From contig JAOTYB010000006.1 of assembly GCA_029862065.1 (NCBI GenBank), positions 1 to 32,423 on the forward strand: a DNA stretch of 32,423 bases, given 5' to 3'. The notes under the pieces are model-generated. The model was given only the letters and a program-made list of their open reading frames with translations. It made no database searches and was not told the origin of the DNA. Positions 6,890 to 32,423 of this stretch are shown here, in pieces; position 1 is the first letter of the stretch; each line of letters opens with the position of its first letter. The DNA is from Acidimicrobiia bacterium. Its GTDB lineage: Bacteria; Actinomycetota; Acidimicrobiia; Spongiisociales; SHLN01. The position numbers and the translations under genes were made by a program.

Positions 6890-6946
6890 CTACTAGCCGG
6901 GGGGTCCCGTGATGATTGCCTCCCAACACCCACCAAAGGACGATTG

Positions 6947-8932
6947 ATGGACACCCTCCGCCCGAGAGAGTTTGATGAGTTAGCCGCCCTCGAGCAGCCG
7001 AGCATTGTCGCTTCGATGTGGCGCTACCGCTGGTTGGTCGCTCTCATCGTTGCTGTGTTCATCGGCCTCGGGCTGGCGTTCCAGGCCTATGTCCCGGCGG
7101 CCTTCCAAGCCACAGCCGAGATGGTGGTTGAGGATCCGCGAGCATCGCAGCTCTTCAACATCGGCGATATCCCCCGATCGACGAGCAACCCGCAGCGGTA
7201 TGTGGCCGACCAGGTGGAGATCTTGCGATCGCCCCGGGTGGCTGATGAGGCCGCAAGGCTCATCAGCCTGTGGGCCGCCAACACTCCAGAGGCGCTTAAT
7301 GGCGATCCATTCACGATAGAAGACGACCTATGGCCCTTTTGGCTCGACCAGCGTGACATCGCCGGTGTGGCGATTTCCCAGGACGAGTTCTTGTCCAACA
7401 TAAGCATTTCCTCCAGCCGCGATAGTAACCAGGTAGAGGTTTCCTTCACGGCCGACACGGCCAAGCTATCCCGCATCGGCGCCAATGCCCTCGTCGAGTC
7501 CTACCAGGACGTGCGGTTCGAGCAGTTGAAGGACACCGCCAACAAGGCCGTGCTGCAAATCGAGCGTCGGCGAACCGGATTGCGCTCAGACCTTGACGAT
7601 CTCCAGGCGCAGATCGACAGCATTACCGACGAAGTGCGCTCGGGTTTGGACGAAGAGTTCGAAGCCGACCTCGGTACGTTCCTCGACCTCCAGCGTCAGC
7701 TCAACGGCCTCGACCCGGAGAGCGACGCCGCCGCGACAGTCCGCTTGCAATTGGATGACCTATTACAAGATTTCCAGACCACCGCAGTCATCGACACGAT
7801 CGAGGCGGGTGACTCCGAGCTACAGGCGCTCCTCGCCGAGCAAGAGGCCGGGATTGACGAGTTGGCGACGCTGTCCGGCCGGGCCAACTCCATCCTCATC
7901 GATCTGGAGCTGACCGGCAGCGGCGTTACCAACCTCTCGCTGGCCCCGACCCCCAAGACCACCACCGGCTCGGGCCCGGCTCGCATTCTCGCCGCTGCCA
8001 TCGTGCTCGGCCTGGCTGTGGCCGCTGCCCTCACCTACTTCCTGGCCTCCCGCCGCCGGGCCTTCGGCAGTCGGACATTGCCGGAGCTCGTGCTCAACGC
8101 TCCGTTGCTGGCCGAGGTCCCCGACTTCTTGTTGGAGGGAATCAAGTCGCCCCTGCCCGTCACACAAGCGCCGACGTCGGCGTCGGCTGAAGCCTTCCGC
8201 TTTGCCGCGGCTGCCGTCGACATCCGGGCTTCGGCGGCCGGCGCCAAGTCGCTGATGATGGTTTCCGCCACCCTGGCCAGCGGAAAGACCACTGCGGCCG
8301 CCAACACAGCCATCGCAGCCGCCCGTGAGGGCTTGCGAGTGCTCGTCATCGACGCCGACTTCGGCAACCAGGAGCTGACCAGCCTCTTCCTTGGAGAGGA
8401 GCAGCCCGCAGCCGGCATTACCGAGGTGGTGGCCGGCATCGTGCCGCTTGATCAGGCCGTGCGTCAGGTGGTAGTCACCGACGATCGCTCGCTCTATCTG
8501 TTGTGGCGTGGCCGCCAGCCGGTCGAAGCCGCCAACTTCTTCCGTACCGAGGACACCCAGCGGTTCTTCACCGAAGTCAAGGAGCAGTTTGACCTGGTCA
8601 TCATCGATGGTCCGCCGCTCTTGCAGGTCGCCTACGCCAGCACTCTGGTTCGCTATGTCGACGCGGTGGTGGCGATTGTTGCCCACAACAGTCGTGTCAG
8701 CGAGCTGGAAGAGGTTGCCGACCGGCTCCACTTCATCGAGACGCCGGCCATCGGATATATCTACACCAAGGCGCCTTTGCGTGCCGAGATGACGGCCTCT
8801 GAGGGCTCGATGAAGGACATCCTCGGTCTCGGTGGCGAATCCGCCGGCCGGCCCACGGTCGGCCAGACCCGCTCAACCCGCCGCTCCCGTCGGGACGCCG
8901 GCAACGGCGGTGACTCGGCTCCGAAGAGCTAG
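6947..8932 (+). CDS. Wzc/CpsCD-like polysaccharide co-polymerase with kinase-type ATPase domain (copy 1)
   Basis: This inner-membrane protein controls polysaccharide chain length and export. The 661-aa protein has a Wzz-type part with TM1 at about 29-49 (LVALIVAVFIGLGLAFQAYV), a coiled-coil-rich outer region (about 150-320) and TM2 at about 345-366. A cytoplasmic BY-kinase-type domain follows: Walker A ATLASGKTT (K447), Walker A' VLVIDADF and Walker B LVIIDGPPLL. The C-terminal tail (RSTRRSRRDAGNGGD) has no tyrosine cluster, so the usual autophosphorylation target is missing. The track ORF begins at TTG 6944; ATG 6947 with AAAGGA upstream is better. A paralogue with the same architecture lies at 21417-23336 on the other strand. 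A hairpin and heptamer array follow the stop codon. Confidence 0.92.
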   Translation: MDTLRPREFDELAALEQPSIVASMWRYRWLVALIVAVFIGLGLAFQAYVPAAFQATAEMVVEDPRASQLFNIGDIPRSTSNPQRYVADQVEILRSPRVADEAARLISLWAANTPEALNGDPFTIEDDLWPFWLDQRDIAGVAISQDEFLSNISISSSRDSNQVEVSFTADTAKLSRIGANALVESYQDVRFEQLKDTANKAVLQIERRRTGLRSDLDDLQAQIDSITDEVRSGLDEEFEADLGTFLDLQRQLNGLDPESDAAATVRLQLDDLLQDFQTTAVIDTIEAGDSELQALLAEQEAGIDELATLSGRANSILIDLELTGSGVTNLSLAPTPKTTTGSGPARILAAAIVLGLAVAAALTYFLASRRRAFGSRTLPELVLNAPLLAEVPDFLLEGIKSPLPVTQAPTSASAEAFRFAAAAVDIRASAAGAKSLMMVSATLASGKTTAAANTAIAAAREGLRVLVIDADFGNQELTSLFLGEEQPAAGITEVVAGIVPLDQAVRQVVVTDDRSLYLLWRGRQPVEAANFFRTEDTQRFFTEVKEQFDLVIIDGPPLLQVAYASTLVRYVDAVVAIVAHNSRVSELEEVADRLHFIETPAIGYIYTKAPLRAEMTASEGSMKDILGLGGESAGRPTVGQTRSTRRSRRDAGNGGDSAPKS

Positions 8933-8933
8933 G

Positions 8934-8970
8934 CGAGTTCTGCTCGGCTACGCCGAGCTTGCGCAACTCG
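8934..8970. terminator. Two-tier hairpin just after the first Wzc-like gene
   Basis: GCTCGGC-TAC-GCCGAGC (8942-8958) forms a 7-bp stem with a 3-nt loop. An outer 6-bp stem (CGAGTT 8934-8939 with AACTCG 8965-8970) encloses it. It begins two bases after the stop codon. There is no T-run, so it may be a processing or stability element, or a REP-like unit, instead of a classical terminator. Its 3-nt loop and GAGTT/AACTC arms resemble the hairpins at 32264-32304. Confidence 0.5.
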
Positions 8971-8975
8971 ACGCC

Positions 8976-9094
8976 AATAGGCGATAGGCGATAGGCGATA
9001 GGCAAAACCTAGTTGGTGCACCGCCTCGGGTCCCCGAGATACTGCGTACTGCGTACTGCATACTGCGTACTGCTTGCCGCTCAACTGTCAACTG
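8976..9094. repeat. Heptamer tandem-repeat element, copy at 9.0 kb
   Basis: Four GATAGGC-type units (8976-9003) run into a 39-nt core that begins at 9001. The core is followed by five TACTGCG-type units (9040-9074), a short spacer and two TCAACTG units (9081-9094). The core contains CTCGGG-TC-CCCGAG (9025-9038), a 6-bp hairpin. It occupies the convergent gap between the first Wzc-like gene and the GT4 gene. The core is 29/39 identical to the copy at 14986-15024. Confidence 0.85.
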
Positions 9095-9107
9095 TTGACT
9101 TGGCTGC

Positions 9108-10388
9108 CTATCCGCTCGCGATGGCTGCTCTGATAGCGGCCTCGAGTGTGGCATGGGCTTCGGCAGTGTTGAGGTTGGGTGTGTTGTCGAGCCCGGAGGC
9201 CTGATAGAAGTGGGTCATCGCCGCTCCGAATTGTTCGGCGATCTCCTGGCGGGACCCGGGTGACACCAACCGCACCCGACCGGGGTCGATGGCAGATTCC
9301 GCCACGGTCTTGGCGCCACCGTTGGCGAACACGATGACCGGCGCGCCGCGCTGCATTGCCTCAGCCAGCGCGGTCCCGCCCTCCTCCCGAACGCCGGCGA
9401 ACACCACTGCCCCGGCCCGGTCGAGCAGATCCATTGCTTCCGGGTAGGGGAGCCACCCTCGGAGGTCGACCCGATCAAGGAGGCCGAGTTCCTCGATCAG
9501 GCCCTCTAGCGCCGACCGTTCCGGGCCATCGCCGACGATCACCATGCGCACGTCCGGGTGGGCCTCGGCCAACCCGCGGACGGCCAATCGAACCCCCTTG
9601 CGCGTCTCGAACGACGACAGAAACAGTATGAAGTCCTCCCGCGGTTTGGCGACCCGGTCGACCTCAGTGAACATGACATGGTTGAGAACCACGTCGGCCG
9701 GACGGGGCCTCCCGAGCCGCGCCTGGGTCTCTTCGCTTTGGGCGATGCGCACGGCTGCCTTCCGCCAGGTCCGCCGGGTAGCGGGGGCCAGCGACAAGAC
9801 CCGAACTGCGATGAGGTCGATCAACTCGGATGCGATGCCTTTCGCTCCCAGAGCCCGCCACATGTCTGACGGAGTGGTAACAGCACCGCCGACCGGGCCC
9901 CAGGCCAGAGGAATCGGGAGGCGACGCCCCGGAGAGGGCAGCCAGTAGACGGAGTAGGTGGCGTGATGGGTCACGTCGAAGGGTCGGTCCGCGTGGAGCT
10001 TTTTCGCCAGTCGCCGAGCGCTGCGCTGCCACCCCAGGTATGCGATGAAGTACCCGATTAAGTGTCTTCGCGACTTGTCGGTAGGCGCATGTGGCAACCA
10101 GCGCGCCCACTTCGGCTCGTTGACGAGTTGGAATTCGATCGTGGAATCCGGGTTCTCGCGCTCCCATTCCTGGATTGCGCCGATGTGCTCAGGTCCGACC
10201 AGCACGGTCAGTTCGCCGAACCGGGCAACCGACTGGACCAGGCTCCAGCCAACCCCTGGTTCGGATCCCCTTCCCGGTTCGCAGGCGTAGGCGATTACCA
10301 AGACACGCGGGCGCCGAGTCTCGGATGGAGCGGAGAGATTTGCTTGGCTCACCAGGCCTGTCGATTCGTGGCCGATCGACTTCGCCAT
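9108..10388 (-). CDS. GT4-family glycosyltransferase (last gene of the minus operon)
   Basis: This is a GT-B fold glycosyltransferase that adds a sugar to the lipid-linked repeat unit in the cytoplasm. The protein is up to 426 aa. Its N-terminal Rossmann half starts VLVIAYACEPGRGSEPGVGW, a pattern known in EPS transferases of this group. The C-terminal half has FILFLSSFETRKGVRLAVRG, MVIVGDGPERSALE, RVDLRGWLPYPEAMDLLDRA and EEGGTALAEAMQRGAPVIVF, with the donor-binding E-x7-E-like region. The ATG at 10388 overlaps the ligase gene by 40 nt and has AAGGA about 11-15 nt upstream. An alternative GTG at 10352 gives a GTGA overlap with the ligase stop and may be the true start. Donor and acceptor sugars are unknown. 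Confidence 0.88.
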   Translation of the reverse strand: MAKSIGHESTGLVSQANLSAPSETRRPRVLVIAYACEPGRGSEPGVGWSLVQSVARFGELTVLVGPEHIGAIQEWERENPDSTIEFQLVNEPKWARWLPHAPTDKSRRHLIGYFIAYLGWQRSARRLAKKLHADRPFDVTHHATYSVYWLPSPGRRLPIPLAWGPVGGAVTTPSDMWRALGAKGIASELIDLIAVRVLSLAPATRRTWRKAAVRIAQSEETQARLGRPRPADVVLNHVMFTEVDRVAKPREDFILFLSSFETRKGVRLAVRGLAEAHPDVRMVIVGDGPERSALEGLIEELGLLDRVDLRGWLPYPEAMDLLDRAGAVVFAGVREEGGTALAEAMQRGAPVIVFANGGAKTVAESAIDPGRVRLVSPGSRQEIAEQFGAAMTHFYQASGLDNTPNLNTAEAHATLEAAIRAAIASG

Positions 10389-11791
10389 TTCCCGACCGTT
10401 CCTTCAGTGGCCACGACCGAGCCAAGTCCGTAGATGCTCCACAGCCAAACGGCAGCCTGGGGACCTTCCAAGCTGGGGTCAAAGAAGCCATTGATGAGGG
10501 CCGCCATCGCTCCCACCATGCACCACGAGAGGACGGCGGCTTTCTGTGATTCGCCCAACTGGCTCAGCCGTTTTCGAGCCCTCCATAGATACACATACCA
10601 GACGGCCCACAATGCCACCCAGAGACTCGTTCCGATCAGGCCCATGCGGGCGAGCACCGATAGATGTGAGTTATGGGGATTGCGCAATTCGGGGCCCGTT
10701 TCCGCACCAGCATAGAACCCGTATTTACCGGCGAGGTTCGGCCCAAAACCGAAACCAGATAAGAAACGCTCGTTCGTCAACGTGTCGTCCAGTACGAGGT
10801 CCCAGAGCTCGAGTCGCCATGCAATGGTGCCATCATCCTCACCGGTACCCGGCTCGGCCCGGACGTTGATGTCGGTGATATTTGAAAACAGCTGGGATAT
10901 TGAGACTTCCCGTCGCTCCAAGTCGAACCGCACATCGAATGCAAAAGCCAGCAACATCGCGGCTATGAGAACGACCAGAACGTTGCCCATTGCCGGCCGC
11001 GCCCGCTTGCCTGCCAAGTAGATCGCAAAGAGAGCTATGAAGCCGGCGACCAGTGTGCCTCGGTTTTGGGTTCCCGCCAGAGCGAGCAAGAGAAGTCCGC
11101 CGACGGTAAGAAGCACATTTCGCACACGGTCACGTCGCTCCACTTCGGGTGCGACGACCAGCAAGAGAAAGGCGATCGCAATAACCGCCTGTACCCCCAC
11201 GTTGCCCGGCTTGTGTGACGTGATCAGGACCTCCGAGTCGGGCAGGAACAACCCGGTCTGCCGGTTGGCCAGTAGAAGACGCACCGTCCCGATCATCAGA
11301 AAGGCCGGGATGATCCTCGTGTACCAGCGAATGAACAAGTCATACGCCGGCTCCCAGGCCCGGACCAATGCCCCCAGGACAATTGCGAACAACCCGTAGT
11401 AGAAGATGGCGCTGTCACGCACCGCCTCTTGAACGGGGTTGGAAGTTGCGCCCAGGATGAGGAGCATGAATCCGAACCCCATGAAAGCGACAAGAAACTG
11501 CATCGGCAGACTCAGTCGGATGAATCGAACCGCCTCACCGGATCGGATGACGACATAGAGCCCGAGCGCCAGTATGAACTCGCCGACGAACAACGGTGTC
11601 CCTGGCACATGGATCCACGCGAACGCACGGTCGAAAAAGAGGTAGCCGCCGAGCAGGACGGCCAGCGCTCTGGTCAGGAAGCGGTAGCGGGCAGTGCGGT
11701 CTTTCAGCGCACTGGCGATCAACGCCTTTGAGGCGGACCCGTGCTCATTGCGGGGCGACCGTTCAGGAGGTGAGAAGATCGAGTCGGTCAC
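10349..11791 (-). CDS. O-antigen ligase / Wzy-type polymerase family membrane protein
   Basis: This is a multi-spanning membrane enzyme that either polymerises lipid-linked repeat units outside the membrane (Wzy) or ligates glycans to an acceptor. The 480-aa protein has about ten to twelve hydrophobic helices. A large outer loop near the C-terminus carries GFGFGPNLAGKYGF and the characteristic NPHNSHLSVLARMGLIG motif, whose histidine is the conserved functional residue. In a locus with a priming transferase and Wzc-like proteins, polymerase is the more likely role. The start is GTG 11791 with GAGAGGAGAG upstream. No Wzx flippase gene was recognised in the window. Confidence 0.87.
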   Translation of the reverse strand: MTDSIFSPPERSPRNEHGSASKALIASALKDRTARYRFLTRALAVLLGGYLFFDRAFAWIHVPGTPLFVGEFILALGLYVVIRSGEAVRFIRLSLPMQFLVAFMGFGFMLLILGATSNPVQEAVRDSAIFYYGLFAIVLGALVRAWEPAYDLFIRWYTRIIPAFLMIGTVRLLLANRQTGLFLPDSEVLITSHKPGNVGVQAVIAIAFLLLVVAPEVERRDRVRNVLLTVGGLLLLALAGTQNRGTLVAGFIALFAIYLAGKRARPAMGNVLVVLIAAMLLAFAFDVRFDLERREVSISQLFSNITDINVRAEPGTGEDDGTIAWRLELWDLVLDDTLTNERFLSGFGFGPNLAGKYGFYAGAETGPELRNPHNSHLSVLARMGLIGTSLWVALWAVWYVYLWRARKRLSQLGESQKAAVLSWCMVGAMAALINGFFDPSLEGPQAAVWLWSIYGLGSVVATEGTVGKWRSRSATNRQAW

Positions 11792-11846
11792 GCGACGCTC
11801 TCCTCTCGCCGGGTCGTCGTTGCCCTAGCAGGACGGTTTGCCGCGG

Positions 11847-12809
11847 CTACGCGGCGCCTTCTTTAACCTGCTTTTCGATCCAGCGATAGGTATCGACTAG
11901 GCCTTCTTCGAGGGCAGTAGTCGGTTCCCATCCGAGGACCTCGCGCAGCTTAGTGTTGTCGGAGTTTCGGCCCCGCACGCCCTGCGGCCCGTCGACGTGC
12001 TTGAGCGTAATCCCTTGCTTGCCGGAGATCTCGATGACGATCTGCGCCAGCTCGTTGATCGTGACCATGCGGTCGCGACCCAGATTGAGCGGCTCGGTGT
12101 AGCCCGAGTCCATAAGACGGACGAGGCCTTCCACGGTGTCGTCCACGTGACAGAAGGAGCGGGTTTGCTCGCCGTCACCCCAGATCTCGATCGTTCCACC
12201 GTCTTCGACCTCGGCGACCTTGCGGCACAGCGCGGCCGGGGCCTTCTCGCGTCCGCCGGTCCAGGTGCCGTAGGGCCCGTAGATGTTGTGGAAGCGGACC
12301 ACTCGCACGTCCATGCCGTAGTCGAGGTGGTAGTAGTGGGCGGCGATTTCTGAGACAAGCTTCTCCCACCCGTAGGCGTCCTGGGGAGCTGCCGGATAGG
12401 CGTCTTCCTCTTTGAGAGGCGTGACGTTGGCGTCCTCCTGGAGGTACTCCGGGTAGATGCAGGCCGACGACGTATAGAGGTACTTCGAGACCCCATTCTC
12501 CCGAGCCGCCTCCAAGGTGTGCAGGTTGATGAGGGCGTTGTTGTGGAGAATGGTCGAGTGGTTGGCCGAGATGAAGCCCATGCCGCCCATGTCGGCGGCC
12601 AATGCGTAGACGTGGTCGACGTCCTTGGTGGCCTCCTGGCAGGCTTCCCAACGGCGGAGGTCGAGGATCTTGAACTCATCGGCGTCGATGTCACTGAATT
12701 CGGGTTCCTTGATGTCGACACCCCGGACCCAGTAGCCGCGGTTACGGAGATCGGTGACGAGGTGGTGGCCGATGAATCCGCCGGCTCCGGTGACGAGTAC
12801 TCGTTCCAT
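11847..12809 (-). CDS. gme: GDP-mannose 3,5-epimerase
   Basis: This enzyme converts GDP-D-mannose to GDP-L-galactose (or the 5-epimer GDP-L-gulose) in the cytoplasm. The 320-aa short-chain dehydrogenase-type protein has the NAD site TGAGGFIG (7-14), ADMGGMGFI (72-80), TSSACIYPE, QDAYGWEK, RFHNIYGPYGTWTGGREKAP and GVRGRNSDN. These match the plant enzyme from memory almost block for block. C117, Y146, K150 and K189 correspond to Arabidopsis C145, Y174, K178 and K217 with a constant offset of 28, so no gaps fall between them. ATG 12809 has AGAAGGAA upstream. In plants the product feeds ascorbate synthesis; here it most likely feeds the polysaccharide. A generic NDP-sugar epimerase is possible but less likely. 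Confidence 0.9.
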   Translation of the reverse strand: MERVLVTGAGGFIGHHLVTDLRNRGYWVRGVDIKEPEFSDIDADEFKILDLRRWEACQEATKDVDHVYALAADMGGMGFISANHSTILHNNALINLHTLEAARENGVSKYLYTSSACIYPEYLQEDANVTPLKEEDAYPAAPQDAYGWEKLVSEIAAHYYHLDYGMDVRVVRFHNIYGPYGTWTGGREKAPAALCRKVAEVEDGGTIEIWGDGEQTRSFCHVDDTVEGLVRLMDSGYTEPLNLGRDRMVTINELAQIVIEISGKQGITLKHVDGPQGVRGRNSDNTKLREVLGWEPTTALEEGLVDTYRWIEKQVKEGAA

Positions 12810-12876
12810 TTTCAGTAGTTCCTTCTCTTTGGGTGGCCCTGTTCAGAGCTTGCTGGGCAAATGGCTCGGATGCCAC

Positions 12877-13692
12877 TCACTGTACTTCACTTTCCGCGGT
12901 TGTATCGGGGGCTTGGGGTCCCCGATACAACTCGGTAACGGTGACTAAACGGGGCGGTCTCCGGAGCACCCGGAACACGAACCGAGGGTTGTTTCCCAGG
13001 TAGCGCTTCCACAGCCTGCGAGGCTCCTTGAGCAGGCGATAGAGCCACTCGAGACCCCGCTTCTGCATCCATGCTGGGGCCTGGGGAAGCAGGCCGGCGT
13101 GGATGTCAAAGGCGGCTCCCACTCCGAGGAGGGCGGGAGCATTGAGCCGAGCCCGGTTGGCGTCCATCCAGCGTTCCTGCTTGGGGGTGCTGAGGCCGAC
13201 CCATACGAAGTCGGGCCCGGCGCGGTTGATGGAGCTGGTGATCTCGGTGACCTCGGCCTCGGTGAGGTCACGGAAGGGCGGCGAGTAGGTCCCGACCACT
13301 TTGAGGCCCGGAAACAGTTCGCCGAGACGGGCGGCCAGCAGTTCGGGGACACCCTCTTTGCCGCCGTAGAAGAAGTGGGTCCAGCCTGCGGCCGCCGACC
13401 GACCGAGGATCTCCAGCATGAGGTCCGGCCCATACACGCGAGACATATCGATGGCTCCGGCCCGCTTGCCCGCCCACACCATCGGCATCCCATCGGGGGT
13501 CGTGAGCCCGGATCGATTGTGGATGCGCAGCAAGTCGGGGTCGGCCTGCGACTCCATAACGCCGTGAACGCCGGTTACGCACACGTAGTGCGGCTCGTTC
13601 TCGTCCACCCAGCGGCTGAGCTCCGCCACCGCGCTCGTCATGTTGATCGCGCTGATGCCAACGCCCAAGACGTCTACTCGAGGGATTCCCAT
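12877..13692 (-). CDS. WecG/TagA/CpsF-family glycosyltransferase (GT26)
   Basis: Members move N-acetylmannosamine, its uronic acid, or glucose-type residues onto lipid-linked acceptors at the membrane. The 271-aa protein has the family blocks GLTTPDGMPMVW (with D67, the expected catalytic aspartate), YGPDLMLEIL, FFYGGKEGVPELLAARL, VWVGLSTPKQERWM and GVGAAFDIHAG. Its basic C-terminal region (LLKEPRRLWKRYLGNNPRF) is typical for membrane attachment. The track ORF begins upstream at 14229 in a frame antisense to sense of the GT4 gene. The real start is ATG 13692 (MGIPRVDVLGVGI), 7 nt after the GT4 stop and without a visible ribosome-binding site, so it is probably translated by coupling. In this locus it probably adds the second sugar. 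Confidence 0.92.
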   Translation of the reverse strand: MGIPRVDVLGVGISAINMTSAVAELSRWVDENEPHYVCVTGVHGVMESQADPDLLRIHNRSGLTTPDGMPMVWAGKRAGAIDMSRVYGPDLMLEILGRSAAAGWTHFFYGGKEGVPELLAARLGELFPGLKVVGTYSPPFRDLTEAEVTEITSSINRAGPDFVWVGLSTPKQERWMDANRARLNAPALLGVGAAFDIHAGLLPQAPAWMQKRGLEWLYRLLKEPRRLWKRYLGNNPRFVFRVLRRPPRLVTVTELYRGPQAPDTTAESEVQ

Positions 13693-13699
13693 GGAAGAA

Positions 13700-14881
13700 T
13701 TATCGACGCTCGGAGGTGGGACCTGAAATGGTACGAGCGACCCTTTCATAGACCGCTTCCAGCCCGGCCAGGCCGTGCTGTTCGGAGTAGCGGTCCTCAA
13801 AGAGGCGTCGGGCGCTGGTTGATCCGGCGGCGACGTGAGCGCGATCTTGCAGGCGAGCCAGGCCCTTGGCCAGGTCGTCCGGGTCGCCCGGTCGGGCCAG
13901 CCAGTCGGGCCCGAGCGGGGCAACGACTTCGGGAATCGGGCCGATGTCGGATGCGAGAACGGGCACGCCGGCAGCCAATGCTTCCAGCAACACCATGCTG
14001 AGGCCCTCGTACCAAATCGATGGCAGAACCAGTGCCCGGGCTTCGAGCATGTGGGACCGCACCGCTGATTGGTCCACCTGACCCAGAAGGGACACACTGG
14101 GCAGACCTCTCCGTCGCAGGTCGGCCTCGAGCGGGCCGACGCCGATGATGTCGAGCTCATAGTCGAGCCCGGCTCTCTCCCACGCATTAAGCAGCACGTC
14201 GGGAGCCTTCTCGGTGGTGAGCCGGCCAACGAAGAGCACCCGGTTGGAGTCTTCGGCCGCCCGGGTGCGGGGCCCGGGGTCGGGTACGAAATTGGGTTTC
14301 ACCGCGATCCGGTCGGCCGGGATCCCGCTTTCGATGAAGCGGTCACGGGCGAAATCGGTGAGAGCAAGGATGAGGTCGAGGTCTTTGCGCCAGGTCCCCC
14401 GCCGGCGGTTGAAGGCGATCGTCGAGGCCGATGCCAATGACTGGGTGTAGCTGTCGAGGTAGCACTTGTAACGCACGCCGTACCAGGCGTTCTGGCTCGC
14501 GACACACAGTTCGCATGCCTGGTTGTCTCGCAGCAACATGGCGTTGGCGCAGGCCAGCCGGTAGTTGTGGAGCGTGAGAACGGTTGGCGAGAACTCCCGA
14601 GCTGCCCGAAACACGGAGGGGGACAGGTGGTACCAGGTGTTGTGGAAGTGGGTGACGTCGGGGGCGTGCACCCGAACCAGGTCACGGACTCGCCGGGCGG
14701 CCGCCGGGTTCCAGGGGCTTCGGATCATGTCGCCGGCGGCGGCCAGCGGTCCCGGCGGGTTCTGCTCCCGATGCTCGATGACCGAATGCCCGGCGTCCCG
14801 CAACAGTTCCGCCTCATTGGAGGCCACCGAGTCCTCTCCACCCGGCTGACGATACTGGGTGTGGATCTGGAGGATTTTCAC
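13700..14881 (-). CDS. GT4-family glycosyltransferase (first gene of the minus operon)
   Basis: This is a GT-B glycosyltransferase of 393 aa. Its N-terminus MKILQIHTQYRQPGGEDSVA is typical of a large group of bacterial GT4 enzymes. A cysteine-containing stretch (QACELCVASQNAWYGVRYKC) follows HNYRLACANAMLL and may form a small structural or metal site. The C-terminal donor domain has NRVLFVGRLTTEKAPDVLLNA, YELDIIGVGPLEADLR, and SIWYEGLSMVLLEALAAGVP with the E-x7-E motif. It begins the operon that continues into tagA-like, gme, ligase and the second GT4 gene. Its promoter must lie in the 404-nt gap that contains the largest heptamer array. Sugar specificity is unknown. Confidence 0.9.
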   Translation of the reverse strand: MKILQIHTQYRQPGGEDSVASNEAELLRDAGHSVIEHREQNPPGPLAAAGDMIRSPWNPAAARRVRDLVRVHAPDVTHFHNTWYHLSPSVFRAAREFSPTVLTLHNYRLACANAMLLRDNQACELCVASQNAWYGVRYKCYLDSYTQSLASASTIAFNRRRGTWRKDLDLILALTDFARDRFIESGIPADRIAVKPNFVPDPGPRTRAAEDSNRVLFVGRLTTEKAPDVLLNAWERAGLDYELDIIGVGPLEADLRRRGLPSVSLLGQVDQSAVRSHMLEARALVLPSIWYEGLSMVLLEALAAGVPVLASDIGPIPEVVAPLGPDWLARPGDPDDLAKGLARLQDRAHVAAGSTSARRLFEDRYSEQHGLAGLEAVYERVARTISGPTSERR

Positions 14882-15285
14882 GGGAGGCCAGTGTACGGCA
14901 GCTCAATCCCCGGGCGTTTCAATCGGATACGCGATACGCGATACGGGATACGCGATACGCAATACGCAATACGCAATACGCAATAGGCAGTACCTTGTTG
15001 GTGCGCGGTCTCGGGCCTCCGCGCTACTGCTTACTGCTTACTGCTTACTGCTTACTGCGTCCGGCGTCCGGCGTCCGGCGTCCTAGCGTCCGGCGTCCGG
15101 CGTCCTGCGTCCTGCGTCCTGCGTCCGGCGTCCGGCGTCCTGAGTCCTGCGTCCTGCGTCCTGCTTCCTGCGTCGATTTCCGCCACTTTCCCCCCGCTCT
15201 GGCTGCTAACGGTTGGCTCAAGATATCACTCTCCGTGGTCGATAACGCTCTGAGTAACACATACAGACCACTGTGAGGGATGTAC
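14882..15285. other. 404-nt divergent gap dominated by heptamer repeats
   Basis: This gap separates the minus-strand glycosyltransferase operon from the first beta-helix gene, so it must carry both promoters. About 250 nt are the heptamer array listed separately. The remaining 110 nt before the beta-helix gene (15176-15285) hold AT-richer sequence such as AAGATATCACTC and GTCGATAACGCTC. I could not fit a convincing promoter. The 43 nt on the other side (14882-14924) are also unremarkable. Confidence 0.5.
14925..15172. repeat. Large heptamer tandem-repeat element, copy at 15.0 kb
   Basis: The left array (14925-14994) has ten 7-nt units drifting from GGATACG/CGATACG to CAATACG, CAATAGG and CAGTACC. 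The 39-nt core (14986-15024, counting from GGC) contains the GCGCGG/CCGCGC hairpin. The right array (15025-15172) has 21 units: four TACTGCT, one TACTGCG, then TCCGGCG and TCCTGCG variants. Only one unit is 8 nt long (15081-15088). The 7-nt register is otherwise kept while the unit sequence changes. The left array reads TATTGCG-like on the other strand, so the two sides are related inverted arrays. Confidence 0.92.
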
Positions 15286-17574
15286 ATGAAACGCCTAGCT
15301 GCGGCTATCGCTGTCTTTGCCATACTCGTACCACTGCAAGGAGCCATCGCCGGCGCCGACTCGACTTCCGGTACTGAGGTGGCCTTCTACGATCCGGGCT
15401 CGTCCAGCTGGCACATTCCCGGTGGCGACAGCTTCTACTACGGAGCCCCCGGCGACACCCCACTGTTGTGCGACTGGAACGGCGACGGTATCGCCACTGT
15501 CGGCGTGTATCGCGAGACCACCGGGTATCTGCTTCTGAGCAACGGACTCAGCACCGGAGTCGCCGACTATGAGTTCTACTACGGAAACCCGGGCGACCGG
15601 CCGCTGTGCGGAGACTGGAACGGCGATGGTGTTGACACGATTGGCATCTTCCGTCCGTCCGAGTCGCGGTTCTATCTGCGCGACACCAACTCGCTGGGAT
15701 TTGGGGACCGGGACTTCCAATTCGGTTTCTCCAAGGGGCTGCCGTTTGCTGGGGACTTCAATGGCGACGGTTACGACACCGTTGGTGTGCGTGATCCCAA
15801 GAACGGGTTCGTGGCCATCGCCCGCGGGCATGTGTCAGACGCGCCGGTGATGGAGGCCTACTTCGGGTCGTCCTCCGACACCCTGGTCGTCGGTGACTGG
15901 GACGGCGACGGCACCGATCGCATCGGCGTCTATCAGCCGGCCACCAAGACCCTGGCGGTCACCAACCTGTTCGGCACCGACAAGATCGCCCACGTCTATG
16001 ACCTGGGTGCTGTGACTGGCATCCCCCTCGCTGCCGAATTCGATGGTTCCGGCGGAGTCCAAACCAAGCATCCCGAGTACACGGGTGAGCTGGCCGACGT
16101 CGTCAAGCCAAAGGCGCAACCCGCTCCGGCAGCTCCGGCTCCGGCTCCGGCTCCGGCCGAGGAGCCCCCGGTTGAGCAATCGGCCACTCCTGTCCCAAGC
16201 GCCGCCCCGGCCTCCCCGATCGTCAAGCCGGCGGTTTCCATTCCCGGCAACGCGATCCGGATCGCCCCGGGCACCAGCATTCAGTCTGTAGTAGATCAGA
16301 ACGGTGGCAGTGCCACGTTCTTGATCGGCGCAGGTGTCCATCGCGAACAGTCGGTGAAGCCCAAGTCCGGCCAGACCTTCATCGGAGAGTCGGGTGCGGT
16401 GATGAGCGGTGCCCGGCTTCTCGAGGGTTGGCAGCGCGATGGCAATCTGTGGTTCGTCGGCGGACAAGGTCAGTCTGGCCGCTTGCACGGCGACTGTGTC
16501 TCGGGAGCTCCTCGGTGCAACTACCCCGAGGAGCTGTTTGTCAACGATGCCCGCATGAAGCATGTTTCGTCCAAGGGCTCAGTCGCAGCCGGTAGTTGGT
16601 TCTTTGACTACGGTTCCGACCGGATCTACATCGGCCAGGACCCGGCAGGCAAGCGAATCGAGACTTCGGTAACCGAGAGCGCCTTCACCGGTCAGGTGTC
16701 GAATGTCACGATCACCGGATTGGTTATCGAGAAGTACGCCAGCCCGGCCCAGGTCGGCGCGATCGATACGCGGGCCAACCCGAGCGGCAACACCAACGGC
16801 TCGGACTGGTTCATTGCCAACAATGAGGTCCGCAACAACCATGGTGTCGGCATCAAGTCGACCAACGGCAGCCGGGTGGTTGGCAACTACGTCCACCACA
16901 ACGGCCAGCTTGGCCTGGGTGGCGACGGTCCCGGAATGTTGATCGAGAACAACGAGATCTCCTACAACAATGCCTCGGGCTACGCCTACGGCTGGGAGGG
17001 TGGCGGCACCAAGTGGTCGAAGTCGACCGACCTGGTGGTTCGGAACAACTACTCGCACCACAACGTCGGTCCCGGCCTGTGGACTGACATCGACAACATG
17101 AACACGCTGTACGAGGGCAACCGAGTCACCAACAACGTTGGCATCGGTATCTTCCACGAGATCTCGTACAAGGCGGTCATCCGCAATAACTACATCGAGG
17201 GCAATGGCGCAGGCCACTCGGCGTGGTTGTGGGGAGCGGGCATCGTGGTGGCGGCTTCGCCCGATGTTGAGATCTACGGCAACGAGGTCATCAACAACGC
17301 CGACGGTATCGCCGGTATCCAGCAAAACCGCTCGGATGCTCCGGCCAGCTTCGGCCCGCAGATTGTCGCCAACCTGTACGTGCACGACAACAAGATCACG
17401 ATGAGTGAAGGTCACACCGGCCTCGTGCAGGACGTCGGTGACAACGCGGTGTTCACCAGCCGCAACAACCGCTTCGAGAACAATGAGTACACGCTCAACG
17501 GTTCCGACCGTCGGTTTGAATGGAACAACGGAGAGCGCAGCTTGCAAGAGTGGAACTCGTTCGGCCTGTCTTGA
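15286..17574 (+). CDS. Secreted 47-aa-repeat plus right-handed beta-helix protein (copy 1)
   Basis: This is an exported protein of 762 aa of unknown exact function, probably acting on or binding a polysaccharide. It has a signal peptide (KRLAAAIAVFAILVPLQGAIA). A repeat domain follows (about 27-260) with five units exactly 47 residues apart, marked DWNGDGI, DWNGDGV, DFNGDGY, DWDGDGT and a decayed EFDGSGG. Next come a Pro/Ala linker (about 268-320, APAPAPAPAEEPP) and a beta-helix of Asn-rich turns (NNEVRNNHGVGIKSTNG, HHNGQLG, GPGLWTDIDN, HEISYKAVIRNNYIEGNG). Cysteines 404 and 411 sit in CVSGAPRCNYPEELF. The track starts at ATG 15280, but GAGGG (15275-15279) touches that codon; ATG 15286 has the right spacing. 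The family resembles parallel beta-helix lyases and epimerases in fold only. Confidence 0.85.
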   Translation: MKRLAAAIAVFAILVPLQGAIAGADSTSGTEVAFYDPGSSSWHIPGGDSFYYGAPGDTPLLCDWNGDGIATVGVYRETTGYLLLSNGLSTGVADYEFYYGNPGDRPLCGDWNGDGVDTIGIFRPSESRFYLRDTNSLGFGDRDFQFGFSKGLPFAGDFNGDGYDTVGVRDPKNGFVAIARGHVSDAPVMEAYFGSSSDTLVVGDWDGDGTDRIGVYQPATKTLAVTNLFGTDKIAHVYDLGAVTGIPLAAEFDGSGGVQTKHPEYTGELADVVKPKAQPAPAAPAPAPAPAEEPPVEQSATPVPSAAPASPIVKPAVSIPGNAIRIAPGTSIQSVVDQNGGSATFLIGAGVHREQSVKPKSGQTFIGESGAVMSGARLLEGWQRDGNLWFVGGQGQSGRLHGDCVSGAPRCNYPEELFVNDARMKHVSSKGSVAAGSWFFDYGSDRIYIGQDPAGKRIETSVTESAFTGQVSNVTITGLVIEKYASPAQVGAIDTRANPSGNTNGSDWFIANNEVRNNHGVGIKSTNGSRVVGNYVHHNGQLGLGGDGPGMLIENNEISYNNASGYAYGWEGGGTKWSKSTDLVVRNNYSHHNVGPGLWTDIDNMNTLYEGNRVTNNVGIGIFHEISYKAVIRNNYIEGNGAGHSAWLWGAGIVVAASPDVEIYGNEVINNADGIAGIQQNRSDAPASFGPQIVANLYVHDNKITMSEGHTGLVQDVGDNAVFTSRNNRFENNEYTLNGSDRRFEWNNGERSLQEWNSFGLS

Positions 17575-17651
17575 GCTCCGCCGCTCTCCGGATTGGCGTT
17601 AGTGACACAGAGCGCTTATTGTCCCGGTGCGCTGACATGGGTTTTTGAGAA

Positions 17652-19805
17652 ATGGGCTGGAGAAAACGGATATTGCGTCGCCCCTTGCTGGTGGCATTTG
17701 CCCTGGTAGCGGCCGCGGTGGTGGGAGTTCCCCCCGCTGCGGCAGTCGATGGTGGGCCACAGGTGGCCTTCTACGACTCAAGCCTCGGACTGTGGCGCAT
17801 GGAGGGCATCGGGGACTTTTACTACGGCATCCCGTCCGACCAGCCGATGCTCTGCGATTGGAACGGTGATGGGACCGAGACGGTGGGGCTGTACCGTCCG
17901 ACTACCGGGTTCCTCCATCTTCGCCAGCAGAACAACTATGGATTTGCCGACGTCTCGATCTACTTCGGGATCCCCGAGGATCGCCCGGTCTGCGGTGATT
18001 GGAACGGCGACGGCATCGACACCGTTGGCGTGTACCGATCGTCGAACCGAACCTTTTACCTGCGGAACTCCAATGTGACCGGGATCGCCGAGCAGCAATT
18101 CACGTTCGGTGACGGTAACGGCACGCCGATCGCCGGCGATTGGAATGGCGACGGAAAAGACACCGTTGGCCTGTGGAAGCAGGGGAACGCGTACTACGAG
18201 CTCTCAAACGGGAACACGAGCGCCATCGGCCCCCACGCGTTCCTCGGTAATCCCGGGGACCCGGTGGTGGTAGCCGACTTCGACCAGAACGGTCGCGACA
18301 CCCTTGGCGTGTACCGGACCACCAATGGGCGCCTGTACCTCAGCGGTCTTGGTGAAGATGGCGGGACCCCTCGTGAATACTCGGTCGGGCTCCATGTTGG
18401 GATTCCGGTCGGTGGCGTAACCGGCGGAACTCCCGCCTCACCGGTCGGCGGTGCTGGCGGTGGTGGTGGCGGCACCGTGCCACCCGGAGCAATCAGCGTG
18501 TTCCCCGGCTCCAGCATCCAAGACGCCATCAATGCGGCCTCCGATGGATCGACCCTGTACATCCGGTCGGGCACCCACCGCATGCAGCGTTTCTCGCCCA
18601 AGTCCGGTCAGACAATCATTGGGGAGCCGGGAGCGGTTCTTAATGGATCGAAGGTGCTGAGCGGCTGGTCGCAAGACGGCGGCCAGTGGTGGGTGGGTGG
18701 CCAAAGCCAGCAGGGCGCTCAAGTTGGCGTTTGCGAGAACGCCAGCTCGCGTTGTCGCTACCCAGAAGAGCTGTTCATCAACAATGCTCGTCTCGAGCAC
18801 GTCAATAGTCGCTCGGCAGTTGGGCCCGGGAAGTGGTTCTTCGACTACGGCGCCGACCGCATCTACATAGGGGACAACCCCTCGGGCAAGACCGTCGAGA
18901 CCAGCGTGACGGAAGGGGCCGTTTACGGGAATGCCCCGAACGTCACCATCACCGGCCTGATCGTCGAGAAGTACGCCAACCCGGCCCAGCACGCCGCCAT
19001 CGACAACCGCCGCCACAACGGGGACGGCGGGGCCGACAACTGGGTCATCTCCGGCAACGAAGTCCGCTGGAACCACGGGGTGGGGATAAAAGTCGGCAAG
19101 AACGCCCGGGTCGAGAACAACAACATCCACCACAATGGGCAGCTCGGTGTGGGCGCAGTGGGGAGCGGGGCCGTCTTCAGTGGCAACGAAATCGCCTACA
19201 ACGGCCAGCTTTCGTTTCTGCTGGATTGGGAGCGGGGTGGATCCAAGTTCGCCGACACCACCAACATCCAGCTTCTCAACAACTACGTTCATCACAACTG
19301 GGGCCCCGGTTTGTGGGCCGACGACAACGCCAAGGACATGGTGTTCGCCAACAACACCATCAAGAACAACACCAAGGCCGGCATTTACTTCGAGATCAGC
19401 TACGACGCCCTCATCCGTGACAACTACATCGAAGGCAACGGGTTCGGGTTCACGCCCTGGCTGTGGGGCGGGGGGATCGTTATCTCGTCTTCTTCCGGAG
19501 TCGAGATTCGCGGCAACACCGTCGTCAACAACGCCGATGGCATCGGGGCGGTCGAACAGGATCGCTTTGAAACGGCCAAGTACGGGCCGCACATCATTCA
19601 GAACCTCTACGTCCACGGCAACACGGTCACCATGTCCGATGGGCTTACCGGCGTTGCCCAGGATGTCGGCTCAACCGCGGTGTTCACCAGCCGCAATAAT
19701 CGGTTCGAGAACAACACCTACAACCTGAGCGGCTCAGGCAACTGGTTCGAGTGGGACAACCGCCAGATGTCCTTCGACGCCTGGCGTGGCTACGGTCTCA
19801 ATTAA
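17652..19805 (+). CDS. Secreted 47-aa-repeat plus right-handed beta-helix protein (copy 2)
   Basis: This 717-aa paralogue of the preceding gene has the same domain order. It begins with a basic signal peptide (WRKRILRRPLLVAFALVAAA, cleavage after PPAAA). Five repeat units follow (DWNGDGT, DWNGDGI, DWNGDGK, DFDQNGR and a degenerate GGVTGG) spaced 47, 47, 46 and 47 residues apart. The linker is glycine-rich here (GGAGGGGGGT), not Pro/Ala-rich. The beta-helix shares CENASSRCRYPEELF (C361, C368), WERGGSKF, NWGPGLWADDN, FEISYDALIRDNYIEGNG and VVNNADGIGAVEQDR with copies 1 and 3. It lies 77 nt after copy 1 in the same direction. ATG 17652 has only a weak GAGAA upstream. An enzymatic role is inference; the conserved charged residues on the helix face are the candidates. 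Confidence 0.85.
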   Translation: MGWRKRILRRPLLVAFALVAAAVVGVPPAAAVDGGPQVAFYDSSLGLWRMEGIGDFYYGIPSDQPMLCDWNGDGTETVGLYRPTTGFLHLRQQNNYGFADVSIYFGIPEDRPVCGDWNGDGIDTVGVYRSSNRTFYLRNSNVTGIAEQQFTFGDGNGTPIAGDWNGDGKDTVGLWKQGNAYYELSNGNTSAIGPHAFLGNPGDPVVVADFDQNGRDTLGVYRTTNGRLYLSGLGEDGGTPREYSVGLHVGIPVGGVTGGTPASPVGGAGGGGGGTVPPGAISVFPGSSIQDAINAASDGSTLYIRSGTHRMQRFSPKSGQTIIGEPGAVLNGSKVLSGWSQDGGQWWVGGQSQQGAQVGVCENASSRCRYPEELFINNARLEHVNSRSAVGPGKWFFDYGADRIYIGDNPSGKTVETSVTEGAVYGNAPNVTITGLIVEKYANPAQHAAIDNRRHNGDGGADNWVISGNEVRWNHGVGIKVGKNARVENNNIHHNGQLGVGAVGSGAVFSGNEIAYNGQLSFLLDWERGGSKFADTTNIQLLNNYVHHNWGPGLWADDNAKDMVFANNTIKNNTKAGIYFEISYDALIRDNYIEGNGFGFTPWLWGGGIVISSSSGVEIRGNTVVNNADGIGAVEQDRFETAKYGPHIIQNLYVHGNTVTMSDGLTGVAQDVGSTAVFTSRNNRFENNTYNLSGSGNWFEWDNRQMSFDAWRGYGLN

Positions 19806-32188: not shown

Positions 32189-32229
32189 GAGCCTGTCATT
32201 GCAGATTTCTCAGCCGCGTAACAAGGTGG

Positions 32230-32368
32230 CGCTTGGCACTGAGCCTGACCTGATTCCAAGCGTGGAGTTGCGGAGCAACTCCCAAGCAACGCCGCAGGCG
32301 TTGCCGGCGCCGCCGGCGCCAAGTCCAGGGAAACCACGTTGACGGTTCCCAGCAACGCTGTTGGGACC
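32230..32368. repeat. Cluster of tandem hairpins after livM
   Basis: Hairpins follow each other closely. CGCTTGG/CCAAGCG (32230-32262) has a 19-nt loop. GGAGTTGC-GGA-GCAACTCC lies at 32264-32282, GCAACGCC-GCA-GGCGTTGC at 32286-32304 and GGCGCC-GCC-GGCGCC at 32306-32320. An imperfect GGTTCCCAGCAAC/GTTGGGACC pair covers 32344-32368. Three of them have 3-nt loops, two with perfect 8-bp stems. No T-tract is seen. They may end or stabilise the liv transcript, or be REP-like elements. Confidence 0.75.
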
Positions 32369-32379
32369 GAACACTCTTC

Positions 32380-32423
32380 GCCGGATGCCGGATGCCGGAT
32401 GCCGGATGCCGGATGCCGGATGC
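32380..32423. repeat. GCCGGAT heptamer tandem array running off the window
   Basis: Six complete GCCGGAT units and a partial seventh reach the last base, so the true length is unknown. The units are identical, unlike the drifting arrays near 9.0 and 15.0 kb. The unit length and intergenic location match the same family. Confidence 0.92.

Follow-up and report, generated by a model that had tools for sequence, protein, structure and literature searches.

The question raised by this locus is whether two short cores, each lying between arrays of heptamers, are copies of a single dispersed repeat and, if so, how this repeat spreads and whether its structure is kept by selection. The window (the whole stretch of DNA analysed, 32,423 nt) is contig C202 of an uncultured Acidimicrobiia metagenome-assembled genome, which comprises 2.14 Mb in 255 contigs and is 79% complete. 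Core 1 (positions 9001-9039, GGCAAAACCTAGTTGGTGCACCGCCTCGGGTCCCCGAGA) and core 2 (14986-15024, GGCAGTACCTTGTTGGTGCGCGGTCTCGGGCCTCCGCGC), both on the plus strand, are 39 nt each and agree at 29 of 39 positions. As the preliminary description had stated, GTTGGTGC and CTCGGG can be read in both. The best other ungapped 39-mer in the whole window (both strands) matched core 1 at only 23 positions, indicating that the resemblance between the two cores is not due to chance. The presence of heptamer arrays on either side of both cores was confirmed by TRF. In copy 1, the core is preceded by a 5' arm of about four GATAGGC units of the GCRRTAS type (8976-9003, plus strand; TRF 8977-9003, period 7, 100% matches) and followed by the 3' arm [TACTGCN]5 (9040-9073, plus strand), the unit of which is the reverse complement of GCAGTA. 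Copy 2 has a 5' arm of GCGATAC/GCAATAC units (14925-14992), a proximal 3' arm, [TACTGCT]5 (15025-15058), which pairs with the 5' arm, and a distal 3' arm with 17 units GTCCGGC/GTCCTGC (15055-15174), all of them on the plus strand and located by TRF. Pfam analysis identified positions 6944-19805 of the window as a polysaccharide cluster (a Wzz/AAA_31 chain-length protein, two glycosyltransferases, an O-antigen ligase (Wzy_C), an epimerase and two right-handed beta-helix proteins).

Heptamer searches and inspection of the loci in the same genome revealed five further copies of this core family, hereafter class A. A sequence-only model (R1) was built from all seven copies and recovered exactly these seven in the genome with E values of 1e-14 to 1e-19 (core 1 within a match at 8994-9052, E 1.3e-17; core 2 also matched), the next match having an E value of 0.11; as the seven copies are the training set of R1, the informative part is the score gap beneath them. 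Alignment of the seven cores (60 columns) gives a mean column identity of 88%, and their scores are 55-71 bits, against 13.7 bits for the next match. The search for more copies in the genome, a test named in the preliminary description, thus brought the copies to seven in all. This bears out its view that the elements form a single dispersed repeat whose heptamer arms vary and that they did not arise by separate slippage. The constant core length of 39 nt reported there is not strict, since a single insertion or a single deletion is present in other copies. No class A copy was found with R1 in 98 relatives, including four congeners, or in 296 sampled genomes of the class, and none was found in 84,980 GTDB genomes or IMG/VR (own genome excluded) using a stricter pattern, to which five of the seven copies conform. 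Weak R1 matches in genomes G044 and G098 (E 0.003-0.006) were rejected, as they resemble coding sequence and chance. Judged from these comparisons, the class A family is real and species-specific.

The class A copies are intergenic and noncoding, and the orientation of the genes around them is inconsistent. Copy 1 and the copy in contig C2 lie between convergent genes and copy 2 between divergent genes, whereas the neighbours are co-directional for the copies after ftsK (C98) and between truA and rplM (C113), functions that we take from the translations and general knowledge, Pfam having covered the window genes only. Among the copies, no evident shared sequence was found beyond the arms. The copy in C110 runs into the contig end, and contigs start or stop within heptamer arrays at C30:1-100, C110:7371-7432 and window positions 32380-32423; therefore, the assembly is probably broken by such repeats, which leads to an underestimate of their number.

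In each copy, a [GCRRTAS]n arm precedes the core and a [TACTGCN]n arm follows it; a distal [GTCCTGC/GTCCGGC]n arm often comes next. The arm units are roughly reverse complements of each other (GCARTAN ... NTACTGC), and in the own genome adjacent array pairs were more alike in inverted than in direct orientation in eight of nine cases. The anatomy is thus a 5' arm, a core of about 39 nt and a 3' arm, and the inverted arms let one strand fold into a long imperfect hairpin.

Class A is not the only core found between such arms. On the minus strand, the 3' end of the window (32190-32423) carries a core of another family, class C, with a [CATCCGG]n arm cut off by the contig end; it is alike in kind but does not belong to class A. 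Two core families with CATCCGG heptamer arms were observed, class B (GCGTTCCCAACAMGACYTGTTG, with GGAAAGCGAGC repeats of ~30 nt after it) and class C (GTTTCCCTGGGCCTGGCGCC), of which class C is common to several species; their loci are window 32190-32423 and contigs C6, C30, C50, C86, C96, C113, C144, C152 and C183. The class C core adjoins at least five arm units (GCAGGAC, AGGCAGT, CATCCGG, CACCAGC, CGCAGTA and others) in four genomes (G000, G001, G002 and G004), and the GTCCTGC unit borders class A and class C cores alike in the own genome. On the loci examined, these Acidimicrobiia have a wider modular system that combines heptamer arms with several unrelated cores, class A being one of its core families. 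Classes A and B share a word of 11-12 nt, CTTGTTGGTGC(A), above most shuffles for two of the nine class B copies only, which is suggestive, and kinship between them is not claimed. Forty-two period-7 arrays were counted in 775 kb of the own genome, a sample that includes contigs picked for arrays, versus 0-5 for other periods not multiple of 7 and none in shuffles. In G002, where the 400-kb sample was not so enriched, the count was 11 versus 0-5.

Comparison with the orthologous slots of congeners showed that whole elements come or go. Between conserved flanks, the gap with copy 2 measures 317-334 nt in the window, against 71-78 nt for its counterpart in G002 and G003, so that the element is extra DNA in the window. 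In the copy 1 slot, the same gap is occupied in G003 by a different heptamer-armed repeat, which is lacking in G002; the G003 sequence (L183 1-420) is a tandemly duplicated unit of ~155 nt that carries arms of [TGATTGC]n and, as its core, a CCTCCCCC hairpin. The truA-rplM slot contains heptamer arrays with other units or cores in G002, G003 and G004, and the ftsK slot contains arrays in G003 and G004, a short run in G001 and none in G002. In G004, the nearest relative, all four comparable class A slots (truA-rplM, ftsK, C2 and C229) have heptamer arms and a non-class-A core. The G004 slots corresponding to C2, C43 and C229 hold heptamer units, an agreement that is partly ascertained because the loci were chosen for having arrays.

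Different cores between similar arms in one slot, one core between different arms and the lack of shared flanks fit cassette copying by arm homology, and the empty sites in relatives indicate that arms and core can arrive together. The explanation that we favour, at about even confidence, is a modular non-autonomous intergenic repeat that is copied as a cassette by recombination or template switching through its arms, rather than by transposition in trans. The core and its arms, without a gene of their own, would be copied between intergenic sites through ectopic recombination or template switching, the shared heptamer units serving as homology, and the arms would later be lengthened, shortened and homogenised through slippage. 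A dedicated cellular function is unlikely for most of the copies. The slot of copy 2 tells against this model: the site is empty in relatives, and transposition accounts for such an insertion more easily than conversion between pre-existing arms does.

This last observation is one of the points in favour of the main rival, a MITE- or REPIN-like non-autonomous element, that is, a hairpin that a transposase moves in trans and whose inverted ends have secondarily expanded into the heptamer arms. The inverted arms, the small size and the dispersal between genes also agree with it. However, PF01797 (Y1_Tnp, RAYT/IS200) was absent from all eight genomes searched (the own genome, 79% complete, and seven related ones), in which positive controls were found, and this argues against a REPIN/RAYT system. 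No fixed outer boundary is visible, and the same slot holds different cores in different species; as for a target-site duplication, the copy flanks are too diverged from those of relatives for one to be read. Movement by a transposase is possible, but we consider it rather unlikely.

A further reading, of low probability and put forward only tentatively, is an undescribed transposase-independent modular repeat in which species-specific heptamer 'dialects' in intergenic slots would act as docking homology for the exchange of unrelated cores. In that case, the cores and units found in a given slot would differ between related species.

A separate question is whether the element is a transcribed structure under selection (a regulatory RNA, a terminator or a protein-binding hairpin); the preliminary description took the conserved length and the different stems of the two cores as a hint of selection on structure. 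The CTCGGG/CCCGAG hairpin proposed for core 1 does fold, but the 6-bp stem would leave a 2-nt loop and the folding closes 5 bp with a 4-nt loop. Folded alone, neither window core stands out from its shuffled versions (z -0.50 and -1.71). Among the seven copies, CTCGG/CCGAG is complete in three, and GCGCGG/CCGCGC only in copy 2. No pair changed on both sides was found in the alignment of seven copies, either for the CTCGG/CCGAG hairpin plus arms or for the GCGCGG/CCGCGC hairpin, and shuffled columns gave the same result; a small ACC/GGT stem is invariant across copies and therefore uninformative. The RNAalifold consensus contained one two-sided change, located in a different fold and with an unfavourable covariation term (+0.39), and it was rejected as evidence. 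The covariation test thus fails to support the claim of selection on structure, and upkeep of the hairpin by selection is not shown, seven copies giving little power. Some whole elements do fold better than shuffles (copy 2 on the minus strand, z -4.3; L042, z -4.0), and the arms pair at 70 of 77 positions on the minus strand versus 57 of 77 on the plus strand when G-U is allowed, both of which would suit a structured element. Nevertheless, the folds of copy 1 and L045 are no better than shuffles, and the strand asymmetry is no independent sign of selection because the copies share ancestry. The element had no Rfam match, and no terminator- or promoter-like site (no GC stem followed by a T run) was detected at the two window elements. 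Together with the inconsistent gene orientation and the absence of class A from congeners, these results make a selected structure improbable.

An assembly or binning artefact of the fragmented genome, to which its 255 contigs at 79% completeness and the contigs that start or end within arrays (the window end, C30 and C110) could point, is very improbable, since the gene neighbourhoods of the copies differ, with synteny to relatives at several of them, and the same kind of element is present in independently assembled relatives. Independent slippage with chance resemblance of the cores, even though heptamer arrays are widespread and variable in length, is refuted for practical purposes by the identity and score gap of the seven cores.

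With a period-7 excess and class A copies between genes, these sequences belong to the heptameric intergenic tandem repeats. Cyanobacterial STRR heptamers are abundant intergenic direct repeats, and the small dispersed repeats (SDR) of cyanobacteria are very small elements of unknown mobility. By description, class A resembles the SDR in being very small and dispersed. The SDR are named in the same report as REPINs and RAYTs (PMC3116915), which describes short intergenic inverted repeats that form hairpins in species-specific families. Class A is likewise short, intergenic, inverted-armed and species-specific, but no Y1 transposase was found in the eight genomes, conserved 16-mer REP ends are absent and the arms are heptamer arrays. 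In Xanthomonas, GGGAATC repeats (Rehm et al. 2015, PMC4692102) are, according to the available part of that report, intergenic, dispersed tandem heptamers of variable length with many convergent (inverted) array pairs, unlinked to insertion sequences and different between related species. The elements studied here share with them the dispersed intergenic arrays in inverted pairs. However, the accessible text presents each genome as having a single type of G-rich unit, which was examined as a G-quadruplex, and describes no dispersed core between arrays (PMC4692102), whereas no run of three or more G is present in the units found here (GCAATAG, TACTGCT and GTCCTGC) and the cores fall into families. 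The multicopy elements of Geobacter metallireducens consist of four or five tandem heptanucleotides, some as opposite-strand pairs at variable distance, and the part of that source available to us proposes them as regulatory RNA or regulator-binding sites and does not describe core exchange (PMC2700814). TAACTGA heptamers of Beggiatoaceae and cyanobacteria are abundant intergenic direct repeats of sporadic distribution, some relatives having shorter repeat-free intergenic regions; these are mostly direct arrays of a single unit, and inverted arms around a shared core are not described in the available portion of the paper (PMC4679880). As far as these partly accessible sources go, the bacterial heptamer excess, the inverted pairs of Xanthomonas and the paired sites of Geobacter are already published (PMC4692102, PMC2700814, PMC4679880). 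A core family with seven dispersed copies, and cores that are exchanged between arms, appear to be new, no description having been found in the mostly open-access literature. Many bacteria over-represent heptamer arrays; as the cause, the accessible part of one source suggests slippage of the polymerase, linked to the portion of DNA that its active site accommodates (PMC4692102). A clade with near-exclusive non-coding period 7, inverted arms, interchangeable cores and comparable orthologous slots would allow a direct test of slippage, transposition and recombination models.

Further palindromic repeats, CGAGTTGCGAAGCAACTCG and GGGAACGCCTTCGGCGTTCC, were observed in G002 (L137 11300-11365, in G002:C12, and L111, in G002:C3), and a repeat of the CGAGTTGCGAAGCAACTCG type is also present near the 3' end of the window.
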